A stretch of 64,000 bases of DNA from Salegentibacter salinarum (lineage in GTDB: Bacteria > Bacteroidota > Bacteroidia > Flavobacteriales > Flavobacteriaceae): positions 62,001-126,000 of the forward strand of contig NZ_FUZC01000008.1 in the NCBI RefSeq assembly GCF_900168115.1. The letters run 5' to 3'. Shown here piece by piece: positions 21,486-41,416 of this stretch; positions within the stretch are counted from its first letter, which is position 1; every line of letters starts with the position of its first letter. The notes below the pieces were generated by a model. The model was not told the origin of the DNA. It ran no database searches and was given only the letters and a program-made list of their open reading frames with translations. The position numbers and the translations under genes are program-made.

Positions 21486-24134
21486 ATGATAGAATCTGAC
21501 ACCTCTAAACTTCCTAAAGAGGAATTAGACAGTCTTAAAAATTATGCACACGGACTTATTAAAACCGTCCGGGAGCCATTATTGGTACTTGATAGAAACC
21601 AAAATATAGTGGCATACAACGCTAATTTTGAGAAAAAGTTTAAAATTAATGAAAGTGAGGGAGGGGTTTCAGTTTTTAACTTTAATCAGAAGCAATTACA
21701 CACGGATGAATTCAGAGAAATTCTGGAAGAACTTCAAAATAGTGAAGAACCGATTTCTGATAGAACTGTTGAGGTGAAATTTTCAGAAAATGAAAAGAAA
21801 AAATTCTCGGTTAATGCTTCTTTACTTTCCTTACCAACAAAAACTTCTTTAACGCTCTTAAGTTTTAAAAGGCTTAAAAGTGGCCGGTTGTCCCGCCAGG
21901 AGAAAGTTTTTAATAAAGTTGTAGATAATATACTTTCCAATGCTCCCGCTGCTATTTGTATTCTTAGAGGTCCGGAACATACTTTTGAGGTAGCTAATGA
22001 GAATTACCTTAAATTAATTGCTCATAGAAATATTATAGGTAAAACTGTAAAAGAAGCGCTTCCCGAAGTCGGAAACCAGGGTTTTATAGATCTCTTAGAT
22101 ACCGTATATTCTACCGGTGAACCATATATTGGTAATGAGATTGCCATTAATCTTCAGGATGAAAATGGAGCGTTTAGAAATTCATACCTCAATTTTGTAT
22201 ATGAACCTACCCGGAACAAAAAAAGCAAAATAGACGGGGTTTTTGTTCATGCAATTGATGTGACCGAGCAGGTACTGGCCCGTAAAAAAGTTGAAGAAAG
22301 TGAAGACCGGTTAAAAGAAGTTATTGATGCCGTTCCTGGTATTATATGGATCACGAATGAGAAAGGTGAAAGTATATTTTTTAATAAAAACTGGTATAGC
22401 TATACTGGCCAAAATGTGGAAGAGGCGAAAGTATTTGGTTGGTTAGAAACAATTCATCCTGAAGATTACGAACGTGCCAAAGCAATTTTCCTTGAAGCTC
22501 AAAAAGAAAGAAAACCTTACAGCTCTACCTTTCGGCTTCAAAGTGCAAATGGAGATTACCGTTGGGTAATAGATAAAGGAAGCCCTAAATTTCATTCCAA
22601 CGGCGAGTATGAGGGAATGATAGGTACGGTAATAGATGTGCACGACGAAAAATTAAAAGAAAACCTTGTTCGGGAAAAAGAACACCGCATGCAGGGAATT
22701 GTTAAGGAAGCCACGGTAGCTACGGCTATTTATACCGGATTGGATATGAATATTGAGCTGGCCAACAATGCCATGCTTAAGCTATGGGGAAAAGATGATT
22801 CGGTATTAAGAAAGCGCTTAGATCAGGCTCTTCCTGAATTAGACGGGCAACCTTTTCTGGAGCTACTAAGAAATGTTTATAGAACTGGAGAAACCTATTG
22901 GGGTAAAGAAGATAAGGTAGATTTACTTATAAACGGTGAAATGCAAACCGGCTTTTATAACTTTACTTACAAACCATTACGTGATAAGAACGGGGAGATC
23001 TACGGAATTTTAAATATGGCAATAGATGTGACCGAATCGGTTAAGTCTAAAATGCTTTTGAAAGAAAGTGAATTTCATTTCAGGCAAATGGCCGATTTAA
23101 TGCCGGGAATGGTTTCAAAAACCGATGCCCGGGGAAGTGATATTTATTTCAATAAAAACTGGTTAGATTTTACGGGCAAGGCCAGTGAAAGCCTTAAGGA
23201 AATTGGCTGGGTAGAATTTATTCATCCCGATGAAAAACAAACTTATTTAGATGCCTGGGAAAATTGTCTTGGTACCGGTTGCGATCTTGAAATGCAGCTG
23301 CGATTAAAGAATAAAGAAGGAAAATACATCTGGCATTTAAGCAGGTGTGAAGCGGTTAAGGAAGATGATGGTTCGGTAAAAATGTGGATTGCCGCAAACA
23401 CCGAAATTGATAAAATTAAGGAAGAAGAAAAACGTAAAGAAGAGTTTCTTAAAATGGTGAGCCACGAGTTGAAAACACCGGTAACTTCTATTAAAGGTTA
23501 TGTACAACTGTTGCTAAGTTTAATTAAAAAACAGCAGGAAGCAGAAGTTTCAAAACTTCCATTACAGCCTTCCTTAGAACGAATAAATCACCAGGTTTCA
23601 CGGTTAACAAGATTAATTTCAGAAATACTTGATCTTTCCAGAATTCGGGAAAATCAATTGGAATTAAAGAAGGAAGAATTTAATTTAAATGAACTTGTTG
23701 CCGAAACTATTCAGGATATAAATTACACCAATACGCAACATAAAATAGACCTGGAAAGTGAAGTGCAAAGCCTTGTACGGGCTGATAGGGATCGTATTGG
23801 GCAGGTAATTATTAATTTAATTATGAATGCTATAAAATATTCACCCGGCAGTCTAAATATTAATGTAAAGGTTGTACAGGAGGCCAGGGATAAAGTCAAA
23901 GTGATTATAAAAGATTTCGGCATTGGAATAAGCACCGAAAACCACAAAAAGATCTTTAAAAGATTTTACAGGGTTGGGGTTAAAAGCGAAGAAACTTATT
24001 CAGGTTTTGGTATAGGATTATATTTGGCGAATGAGATTATGGAAAGACATAATGGAGAAATAAAAGTGAAAAGTAGATTAGGCGAAGGTTCAGAATTTTC
24101 ATTCATTCTGGATGCTACGCAAATTACTTCTTAA
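21486..24134 (+). CDS. Soluble multi-PAS sensor histidine kinase
   Basis: An 882-residue kinase with no signal peptide or TM helix, so probably cytoplasmic. About five PAS-type modules can be traced (about 14-127, 140-262, 272-392, 400-518 and 523-645). Two of them carry the F-x-N-K-N-W ... F-T-G / Y-T-G pattern of PAS-PAC units. The HisKA domain follows with His660 in M-V-S-H-E-L-K-T-P, then HATPase_c (about 770-880) with N-box N-L-I-M-N-A-I-K-Y and G-F-G-I-G-L. It starts a two-gene unit with a REC-only partner nine bases downstream. The signal sensed is unknown; redox, light or small ligands are possible through PAS. Confidence 0.92.
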   Translation: MIESDTSKLPKEELDSLKNYAHGLIKTVREPLLVLDRNQNIVAYNANFEKKFKINESEGGVSVFNFNQKQLHTDEFREILEELQNSEEPISDRTVEVKFSENEKKKFSVNASLLSLPTKTSLTLLSFKRLKSGRLSRQEKVFNKVVDNILSNAPAAICILRGPEHTFEVANENYLKLIAHRNIIGKTVKEALPEVGNQGFIDLLDTVYSTGEPYIGNEIAINLQDENGAFRNSYLNFVYEPTRNKKSKIDGVFVHAIDVTEQVLARKKVEESEDRLKEVIDAVPGIIWITNEKGESIFFNKNWYSYTGQNVEEAKVFGWLETIHPEDYERAKAIFLEAQKERKPYSSTFRLQSANGDYRWVIDKGSPKFHSNGEYEGMIGTVIDVHDEKLKENLVREKEHRMQGIVKEATVATAIYTGLDMNIELANNAMLKLWGKDDSVLRKRLDQALPELDGQPFLELLRNVYRTGETYWGKEDKVDLLINGEMQTGFYNFTYKPLRDKNGEIYGILNMAIDVTESVKSKMLLKESEFHFRQMADLMPGMVSKTDARGSDIYFNKNWLDFTGKASESLKEIGWVEFIHPDEKQTYLDAWENCLGTGCDLEMQLRLKNKEGKYIWHLSRCEAVKEDDGSVKMWIAANTEIDKIKEEEKRKEEFLKMVSHELKTPVTSIKGYVQLLLSLIKKQQEAEVSKLPLQPSLERINHQVSRLTRLISEILDLSRIRENQLELKKEEFNLNELVAETIQDINYTNTQHKIDLESEVQSLVRADRDRIGQVIINLIMNAIKYSPGSLNINVKVVQEARDKVKVIIKDFGIGISTENHKKIFKRFYRVGVKSEETYSGFGIGLYLANEIMERHNGEIKVKSRLGEGSEFSFILDATQITS

Positions 24135-24143
24135 ATAAAGAAT

Positions 24144-24521
24144 ATGGAGAAAAATACAAAGATTCTAGTGGTAGATGATGATTCGGGAATTGGGGAAATG
24201 TTAAAAACATTACTGGAATTTTACGGTTATAAAGTGATCGTTACCGAAAAGCCACTTATAGCCGAAGAATTAATTCAGCAGGAAAATATAGATATAGTAC
24301 TTTTAGATATGCTAATTTCCGGGGTTGATGGTACCGATGTTTGTGCCGGAATTAGAAAGAACCCGGAGATAGAAAAAACTCCTGTACTTATGATGTCCGC
24401 TTTGCACGATGCCGGCCCAAAATGCAAAGATGCGGGAGCCAACGATTTTATTGCAAAACCTTTTGAGGTAGAAGAACTTACCGAGAAAATAGAGAAAATA
24501 CTTGCTGCCGAAAATGATTAG
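24144..24521 (+). CDS. Single-domain response regulator (REC only)
   Basis: A 125-residue receiver domain without an output domain. It has the acidic pair Asp11-Asp12 with Asp13, phosphoacceptor Asp55 (L-L-D-M), Ser85 and Lys105 (A-K-P-F). It begins nine bases after the kinase stop and is almost certainly co-transcribed with it. With no DNA-binding domain it may act by protein-protein contact or as a phosphate shuttle. The partner downstream of Asp55 is not visible here; the next gene is a repressor with its own operator-like palindrome, not a classic output. Confidence 0.92.
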   Translation: MEKNTKILVVDDDSGIGEMLKTLLEFYGYKVIVTEKPLIAEELIQQENIDIVLLDMLISGVDGTDVCAGIRKNPEIEKTPVLMMSALHDAGPKCKDAGANDFIAKPFEVEELTEKIEKILAAEND

Positions 24522-24541
24522 GAAAACATTTCTTTTGTGAA

Positions 24542-24588
24542 TTAGGAATTTATCCAATAAATTTGATTATTATTGGATAAATTCCTAA
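24542..24588. promoter_or_regulatory. Perfect 19-bp inverted repeat, candidate operator
   Basis: The arms are 24542-24560 and 24570-24588, with a nine-base spacer. The arm core is AGGAATTTATCCAATAA and its exact reverse complement. The repeat ends 11 bases before the ATG of the LexA/CI-like repressor and follows the response regulator stop. No T-run follows, and the stem is AT-rich, so it looks more like a dimer-binding operator (or an RNA hairpin over the ribosome site) than a terminator. Autoregulation is inferred. Confidence 0.7.
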
Positions 24589-24599
24589 ACATTAGAATT

Positions 24600-25373
24600 A
24601 TGGGGCAGCCACCATCTATTGACATTAAACATTTTAAAGAAGTACGGGAAGAAAATAACTTCACGCAATCTGAATTTGCCGAGCTTTTAGGAATAAAAAA
24701 CTCTACGGCTGATATTGAGCGCGGCCGTACCAAACTTTCAGGAAAAGTGGTGGCTGAACTTTTGAGCCAGTTCGGGATAAATCCTTTATGGCTCTTCGGG
24801 CAAAGCGGGCAAAAATTTTTACAATTAAGCAAGGGCGATGTAAGTCCAAAAGTGGTTACCGTAGATTCTTCAGATAATGAAAATATGGTAATGGTAAATC
24901 AAAAGGCTGCAGCCGGTTATCCTCATAACGTTCAGGATGTAGAATGGTACCAGCAATTACCCGCTTTTGATATTCCGTTGCCGGAGTTTAGAAATGCTAC
25001 CTATCGAGGTTTTCAAATTGAAGGTGATAGTATGTTACCCAACTATTATCCCAACGAATGGGTTTTGGCCAAAGCCGTACCCGATTTAGACCAGGCAAGT
25101 AACAACAAAATTTATGTGGTGGTTTTGCAGGATTCTGTCCTGGTTAAAAAACTTCAAAAGCTTCCCGATGCTTCAAAGGTTCTTTTAATTTCTTTAAATG
25201 AAGAATACCTACCTATAGAAGTAAATATTAATGAAATCCAGGAACTCTGGCAGGTAAACTCGAAGCTTACTTTTAATTTAGATAATCCATCAGAAAGCGG
25301 ACTTTTTAGAGAGTTAAAACAATCTATGGAAGATCTTAAACGAGAATTGAAATCGTTTAAAAAACAGGCGTAA
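24600..25373 (+). CDS. XRE-family repressor with S24 (LexA/CI-like) self-cleavage domain
   Basis: A 257-residue protein from the ATG at 24600; an upstream in-frame TTG at 24573 lies inside the palindrome and is less likely. Residues about 8-60 form a helix-turn-helix (F-T-Q-S-E-F-A-E-L-L-G). The C-terminal S24 peptidase fold has Ser144 in G-D-S-M-L-P and a catalytic Lys at about 183 (V-L-V-K-K-L). An Ala-Gly pair (Ala105-Gly106 in A-A-A-G-Y-P) matches the autocleavage site of LexA, UmuD and phage CI proteins. It could therefore be inactivated by RecA-type signals, although many Bacteroidota S24 regulators are chromosomal and respond to other cues. No phage genes are nearby. A terminator follows immediately. 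Confidence 0.85.
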   Translation: MGQPPSIDIKHFKEVREENNFTQSEFAELLGIKNSTADIERGRTKLSGKVVAELLSQFGINPLWLFGQSGQKFLQLSKGDVSPKVVTVDSSDNENMVMVNQKAAAGYPHNVQDVEWYQQLPAFDIPLPEFRNATYRGFQIEGDSMLPNYYPNEWVLAKAVPDLDQASNNKIYVVVLQDSVLVKKLQKLPDASKVLLISLNEEYLPIEVNINEIQELWQVNSKLTFNLDNPSESGLFRELKQSMEDLKRELKSFKKQA

Positions 25374-25380
25374 ATAAAAA

Positions 25381-25412
25381 AAATCCTTTTTGAATTTAAT
25401 CAAAAAGGATTT
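25381..25412. terminator. Intrinsic terminator between the repressor and the small lipoprotein gene
   Basis: A 13-bp perfect stem (AAATCCTTTTTGA / TCAAAAAGGATTT) with a six-base loop is followed by T residues on the plus strand and preceded by A residues, so it can serve both convergent genes. Confidence 0.85.
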
Positions 25413-25437
25413 TTTCTTTGGTTGGTTAAGATTTCAG

Positions 25438-25633: not shown

Positions 25634-25933
25634 TTAATAGTCGTCGTTACCTTCAACTTCATCTTCCACTTCGTTGGCAGCATCTTCTACTGCGTCACCG
25701 GTTTCGTTAGCTGCATCTTCAACAGCGTTTCCGGCATCGTTAGCGGCGTCTTCAATGTCGTCTCCAACATTATCCATATCATCATCCATCTCGTGCATTT
25801 CGCCTTCCATCTCTCTTTCCATTTCTTCACCCTCCATTTCCATTTCGTTCTCTTCTTCGTTAACCTCACGGCATGAAGTAAAAGCTGTACTAAGGGTGAA
25901 AAACATTGCGAGCATTAAAATTGATCTTTTCAT
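25634..25933 (-). CDS. Small acidic lipoprotein with Asp/Ala repeats (99 aa)
   Basis: A 99-residue lipoprotein: signal M-K-R-S-I-L-M-L-A, lipobox F-T-S-C (Cys20), then a Glu/Met-rich stretch (about 24-50). A run of imperfect repeats of the form D-A-A-N-[ED]-x-G-[DN]-A-V-E covers about 60-95. The mature part is very acidic and probably helical, resembling the YtxH/late-embryogenesis style of amphipathic repeats in other lipoproteins, but no known function is recognised. It sits 31 bases upstream of the 54-residue paralogue, so the two are probably co-transcribed. Codon repetition makes the antisense strand look coding (Ser/Ala-rich), which is an artefact. Confidence 0.8.
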   Translation of the reverse strand: MKRSILMLAMFFTLSTAFTSCREVNEEENEMEMEGEEMEREMEGEMHEMDDDMDNVGDDIEDAANDAGNAVEDAANETGDAVEDAANEVEDEVEGNDDY

Positions 25934-26062: not shown

Positions 26063-26296
26063 TTAATTATCATCAATTTTATCTATCTCTTCGTCTATTT
26101 CTTCATTTACCTTACCGTCTACTTTTTCACCGGCTCGTTCCAGGATTCCTTTGCGCTCTTCTTCAGGCTCTGGAGTCTCCTCTTTTTCAACTTCAACTTC
26201 CCTAACCACGGTTTCTTTTTCTGTAGTTTCCCGGCAGGAGGTAAAACTCATGGCGGTAAACAGTAAAATTACTCCTGTAATAAGTACTCGTTTCAT
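26063..26296 (-). CDS. Small charged lipoprotein (77 aa), third tandem paralogue
   Basis: A 77-residue lipoprotein with the same M-K-R start and F-T-S-C-R-E lipobox (Cys21) as its two downstream neighbours. The mature part is Glu/Lys/Val-rich (alternating V-R-E-V-E-V-E-K) and ends in an I-D-E-E-I-D-K-I-D pattern. The acidic repeat is weaker than in the other two, so it is a more distant relative. No function is recognised. A terminator-like hairpin separates it from the 99-residue gene. Confidence 0.78.
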   Translation of the reverse strand: MKRVLITGVILLFTAMSFTSCRETTEKETVVREVEVEKEETPEPEEERKGILERAGEKVDGKVNEEIDEEIDKIDDN

Positions 26297-41366: not shown

Positions 41367-41416
41367 AAAAAGGGCTGTCTAAAGCAGGACTTTCACCGTA
41401 TTTAGACAGCCCTTTT
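41367..41416. terminator. Strong intrinsic terminator downstream of etfA
   Basis: A 16-bp stem (AAAAGGGCTGTCTAAA / TTTAGACAGCCCTTTT) with a 17-base loop separates etfA from the downstream minus-strand nuclease gene. Confidence 0.88.

Follow-up and report, generated by a model that had tools for sequence, protein, structure and literature searches.

The 64-kb stretch of Salegentibacter salinarum DNA analysed here (the window) carries on its plus strand a gene that appears to encode the non-canonical LexA of the Bacteroidetes, preceded by a perfect inverted repeat. The two 19-nt arms of the repeat are 100% complementary and separated by a 9-nt spacer, and 11 bases lie between the right arm and the lexA ATG (24600); the first-pass annotation, made from the letters of the window, had described just such a perfect 19-bp repeat before a repressor gene, and this geometry is confirmed. 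Among the 11 inverted repeats listed in the window (exact seed of 11, minimum arm length 13 nt, distance limit of 80), it is the longest perfect pair. A further perfect inverted repeat, with 16-nt arms (AAAAGGGCTGTCTAAA) and a 17-nt spacer, is found at 41368-41416. The features of the lexA locus are:

24535-24537, plus strand: putative -33 element TTG, separated by 20 bp from the -7 box; TTG-N20-TAnnTTTG occurs in 15 of 15 distinct Salegentibacter upstream regions
24542-24560, plus strand: left arm of the perfect inverted repeat
24545-24555, no strand assigned: putative operator (SOS box) 1, GGAATTTATCC, predicted to span -25 to -15; GGA-N5-TCC match to the published motif (PMC8565304), conserved in orthologues
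24558-24565, plus strand: putative -7 box TAAATTTG, between both operators; matches the sigma-A motif TAnnTTTG (PMC9723704) and stands in the same place in 15 of 15 Salegentibacter upstream regions
24570, plus strand: transcription start as predicted from the -7 box and published spacing (PMC9723704); it is the right arm's first base and would give a 30-nt leader
24570-24588, plus strand: right arm of the perfect inverted repeat
24575-24585, no strand assigned: putative operator (SOS box) 2, GGATAAATTCC, predicted to span +6 to +16; GGA-N5-TCC match to the published motif (PMC8565304), conserved in orthologues
24600-25373, plus strand: lexA (Bacteroidetes non-canonical LexA), 257 aa, with HTH_3 at residues 13-65, Peptidase_S24 at 101-212, Ala105-Gly106, Ser144 and Lys183
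25378-25415, plus strand: terminator-like hairpin after lexA, the only one listed by the terminator scan

Directly upstream of lexA, at 21486-24521, a multi-PAS histidine kinase gene is followed by one for a receiver-only response regulator, a pair found in the same place in eight of 48 orthologous loci. Beyond lexA, two small lipoprotein-like frames lie on the minus strand (25634-25933 and 26063-26296), the first of them with acidic repeats.

The lexA protein matched both HTH_3 (PF01381, E = 2.7e-9) and Peptidase_S24 (PF00717, E = 1.7e-13) over cut-off, which bears out the earlier description of the gene as a LexA/CI-like repressor. The winged LexA DNA-binding domain (PF01726) gave no match up to E = 0.001, and HTH_3/HTH_19 was found instead. 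Ala105-Gly106, Ser144 and Lys183 are invariant in all 53 aligned sequences; working from passages of the family description and by eye, we assign the first as the predicted cleavage site and the other two as the predicted Ser-Lys dyad. The best match among the 48 loci of our collection scan came from Salegentibacter agarivorans DSM 23515 (98% protein identity), and the published S. agarivorans LexA, WP_075324850.1, is, judging from strain and similarity, probably the protein at this locus (L001). No paralogue of the LexA protein was found in the genome at E <= 0.001, and a search of solved structures with it returned one match, DBP48, covering the HTH alone. By sequence, the window gene is an orthologue of the S. 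agarivorans non-canonical LexA. It is thus identified as the likely SOS master repressor, with exact coordinates for its putative operators, promoter and targets.

Canonical LexA, as known from E. coli, shares with this protein the S24 domain, the Ala-Gly site, the Ser-Lys dyad and sites before its own and SOS genes, but here a CI-like HTH_3 domain replaces the winged domain. The combination of HTH_3 with S24 recalls phage lambda CI, whose operators are clustered, as are those described here; unlike lambda CI, the window gene is chromosomal, its sites lie before repair genes and its operator has a fixed 5-bp centre. The GGA-N5-TCC motif is also unlike the E. coli operator CTGT-N8-ACAG (PMC8565304).

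The LexA of S. agarivorans DSM 23515 binds GGA-N5-TCC, and changing the ends or the spacer length abolishes binding, while substitution of the operator centre has no significant effect (PMC8565304). The protein binds upstream of its own gene as well, and that gene, unlike recA of the species, is induced by mitomycin C; the targets named in the same study include DinB with DNA polymerase III alpha, umuDC and COG2135 (PMC8565304). The window system resembles this one in genus, in its nearly identical protein, in domains, cleavage site, dyad and own-promoter motif, and in having sites before the same kinds of target (dinB-dnaE, umuDC, COG2135). The feature is therefore real yet largely ordinary, its regulator having already been described in the same genus. 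As far as its main text was consulted, that study reports two or more sites per promoter, without a mirror arrangement, a placement around the -7 box or two spacing classes (PMC8565304).

Each arm of the repeat holds a complete 11-bp GGA-N5-TCC pseudo-palindrome, the second being the mirror of the first and starting 30 bp after it. Since the pseudo-palindrome is complete within each arm, AGGAATTTATCC contains a full operator and is no half-site, and the first-pass view of the 19-bp arms as half-sites of one dimer is wrong: there are two separate operators, one per arm. For the same reason we rejected a single long operator spanning the repeat. The 19-bp perfection arises mostly because both boxes share one sequence in opposite orientation, and perfect complementarity of the arms is unnecessary for the binding model. 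More generally, a long perfect inverted repeat may be two short operators in mirror orientation, which calls for caution. The genome search with AGGAATTTATCC that the half-site view had called for did return matches, at 73 places with up to one mismatch (39 + 34) against 35 (13 + 22) for the reversed-pattern control, three of them exact and two of those at the lexA repeat itself; as a probe for the regulon it is poor, because the real unit is GGA-N5-TCC.

In flavobacteria, the sigma-A -7 box TAnnTTTG sits at -12 to -5 (PMC9723704), and the window promoter match reads TTG-N20-TAAATTTG. The predicted start at 24570 is read from this motif, and read-through from upstream genes may also contribute transcripts. 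RNA from the lexA promoter itself would lack the left arm, because the predicted start is the first base of the right arm. A sigma-70 scan, outside whose scope the Bacteroidetes promoter type falls, returned four promoter-like sites where shuffles gave 4.6, and all four lie on the minus strand.

For the comparison of orthologues we assembled 52 distinct upstream regions (51 orthologues plus the window gene), with orthologue start codons placed by alignment to the window protein; L025 (without an upstream region), the duplicates L096, L098-L105 and L108, and the distant S24 matches L109-L111 were left out of the counts. Within 100 bp of the ATG, two or more GGA-N5-TCC sites were present in 47 of the 52 and one in the other five, with none lacking a site altogether; at least one such site occurred in 0.19% of base-shuffled upstreams. 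The sites of the repeat are thus kept before orthologues, at least one in each of the 52 distinct upstreams, and the earlier suggestion that the repeat is an operator for the adjoining repressor is very probably right.

Lone GGA-N5-TCC sites are common (the window has 13, with 12.8 expected), so that only pairing, position and conservation carry weight. In the whole genome the pattern GGAW5TCC occurs at 150 places and its reversed form at 67. Paired sites (GGAW5TCC-N5-35-GGAW5TCC) are confined to two places in the 4.31-Mb genome, with none for the reversed-pattern control: the lexA repeat, and a position immediately upstream of a dinB-like gene, with a DNA polymerase III alpha-like frame after that gene. 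The extended pattern TWGGAW5TCCWA was found at five genome places (control, two), of which two are at lexA, one is before the dinB-dnaE-like genes, another is in the gap between the divergently oriented umuDC-like and COG2135-like genes, and the last is inside an unrelated reading frame. The motif is therefore present before an error-prone polymerase and other SOS operons (dinB-dnaE-like and umuDC/COG2135-like). Both polymerases near sites (dinB-like and umuDC-like) are IMS-family matches; the remaining gene names at these sites are what we take the genes to be, by eye. The third IMS-family gene of the genome (L114) had no site in its 3.4-kb locus. Between the divergent umuDC-like and COG2135-like genes (L116, 2340-2440) there is one GGATATAATCC site with a one-off neighbour, GGTAAAAATCC, and this stretch may be an operator region shared by the two.

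The spacing of the boxes divides the orthologues into two classes. Of 43 two-site upstreams, 25 have their boxes 29-32 bp apart and 18 have them 19-23 bp apart, with none at 24-28 bp; L031 (41 bp), L043 (40 bp), and L046 and L047 (four sites each) stood outside the spacing and pairing counts, in which L022 and L034 were entered without their additional upstream sites. In 21 of the 25 upstreams of the wide class, the -7 box falls between the two boxes, its first base 13 bp downstream of that of box 1; in L011, a copy of TAAATTTG runs into the first base of box 2, and the three Zunongwangia upstreams had no exact -7 box match. In 17 of the 25, a TTG precedes the -7 box by 17-23 bp. In 21 of the 52 upstreams, those of Salinimicrobium and more distant genera, the predicted start coincides with the A of the lexA ATG or is at most one base away from it; 14 of the 18 narrow-class members are among these 21. 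By the position of the -7 box, the upstreams with a predicted start at the ATG are:

L017-L024, L031-L038, L040, L044 and L046-L048

In these 21 upstreams the lexA mRNA is predicted to be leaderless; in F. psychrophilum, 5.5% of mRNAs are leaderless (PMC9723704). What appears to be new here is this pair of operator-promoter layouts, one of which predicts a leaderless lexA mRNA. We found no description of two lexA layouts in the literature searched, which is no proof of absence. The observation makes a testable addition to the published system, with the same repressor apparently acting on its own promoter in two geometries.

An RNA hairpin that regulates translation was the alternative proposed in the first-pass annotation: could the arms pair in this way within the lexA leader, independently of the repressor? 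The stretch 24520-24620 folds far better than its shuffles (-31 kcal/mol against -15.2 +/- 3.0, z = -5.3, with 0 of 200 shuffles as good), and within Salegentibacter three perfect arm pairs with different centres have the look of compensated changes. When arms were re-paired among upstreams, a test that ignores ancestry, the mirror matching of centres exceeded that of re-paired arms both in the wide class (25 rows, p = 0.0001; 15 distinct pairs, p = 0.037) and in Salegentibacter (15 rows, p = 0.00065; eight distinct pairs, p = 0.028). However, with the -7 box placed between the arms, transcription is predicted to begin at the right arm and to leave out its partner, and the fold of RNA starting at 24573 is unremarkable (z = +0.49). 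Pairing should outlast sequence change if it is functional, and the loss of centre complementarity thus counts against a hairpin: the 5-bp centres are perfectly complementary in eight of 25 pairs at 29-32 bp and in none of 18 at 19-23 bp, although two boxes are kept in 47 of 52 upstreams. Matching in the narrow group did not rise above that of arms paired anew (all rows, p = 0.90; distinct pairs, p = 0.77), and even within Salegentibacter the arms are imperfect in seven of 15 upstreams (L005, L097, L045, L008, L106, L107 and L010). With centre pairing mostly lost while the sites stay, the proposal is unsupported, and we regard a translational hairpin as very improbable.

The stem might also be the terminator of the upstream histidine kinase-response regulator genes, as it is strong and stands 20 bp past the response regulator's stop codon (stop at 24521). 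But by eye there is no run of T after the stem on either strand, and the terminator scan did not list it, although with loops of 3-8 allowed a 9-base loop could not be scored. The kinase-regulator pair, moreover, adjoins lexA in so few of the 48 loci (some of them cut short), with boxes present where the pair is missing, that it is lexA, rather than the upstream genes, to which the boxes belong. A terminator here is extremely improbable.

The repeat is almost certainly, in our judgement, the autoregulatory operator region of lexA, in which two mirror-oriented GGA-N5-TCC SOS boxes 30 bp apart straddle the -7 box. Orthology, the sites, the promoter match, conservation and own-genome sites before SOS-type genes all come from this analysis. 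We infer that, around the predicted transcription start, LexA dimers would occupy box 1, which lies downstream of the -33 element and upstream of the -7 element, and box 2 (+6 to +16), and that LexA on both boxes would block RNA polymerase until DNA damage occurs. RecA filaments would then trigger self-cleavage of LexA at Ala105-Gly106, and the cleaved repressor would leave the boxes, inducing lexA, umuDC, the COG2135-like gene and dinB-dnaE. Most likely, then, in these marine bacteria the SOS repressor switches off its own gene through twin sites, a feature that the first-pass annotation saw correctly and read half correctly.

Besides being operators, the arms may have been kept as mirror copies by joint constraint or by template-switch (quasi-palindrome) correction. 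Salegentibacter centres match in mirror at 3.75 of five positions, against 3.06 when re-paired (eight distinct pairs, p = 0.028, ancestry ignored). Both L004 and L007 depart from the common type by changes at mirror positions in the two arms, and L004 falls inside a clade with the common arm type. Because centre substitutions had no significant effect in published gel shifts, binding alone does not require the centres to match (PMC8565304). On the other hand, the events are few, the sequences related and the test was picked after the data had been seen; in L005 and L097 the left arm alone has changed, and the mirror signal is absent from the 19-23 bp group (p = 0.77, distinct pairs). The mirror matching in Salegentibacter is thus weak evidence for copying between arms, and not for RNA function, and we consider such maintenance possible but unlikely.

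A joint reading of layouts and arms, which we offer as a doubtful conjecture, would be that Flavobacteriaceae lexA genes come in two forms. In one, the boxes are 19-23 bp apart upstream of a promoter predicted to start at the ATG, with a leaderless mRNA; in the other, that of Salegentibacter and Christiangramia/Gramella, a promoter ~30 bp further upstream is flanked by boxes at a spacing of 29-32 bp and would give a leader. The Salegentibacter boxes would afterwards have turned into mirror copies, their likeness maintained in part by template-switch correction. If true, the operators of a repair regulator would have been shaped by a mutation process of the sort to which its regulon responds. 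Finally, the lexA upstreams of Sinomicrobium (L046, L047) carry four GGA-N5-TCC sites within ~71 bp, with start-to-start distances of 19, 19 and 22 bp.
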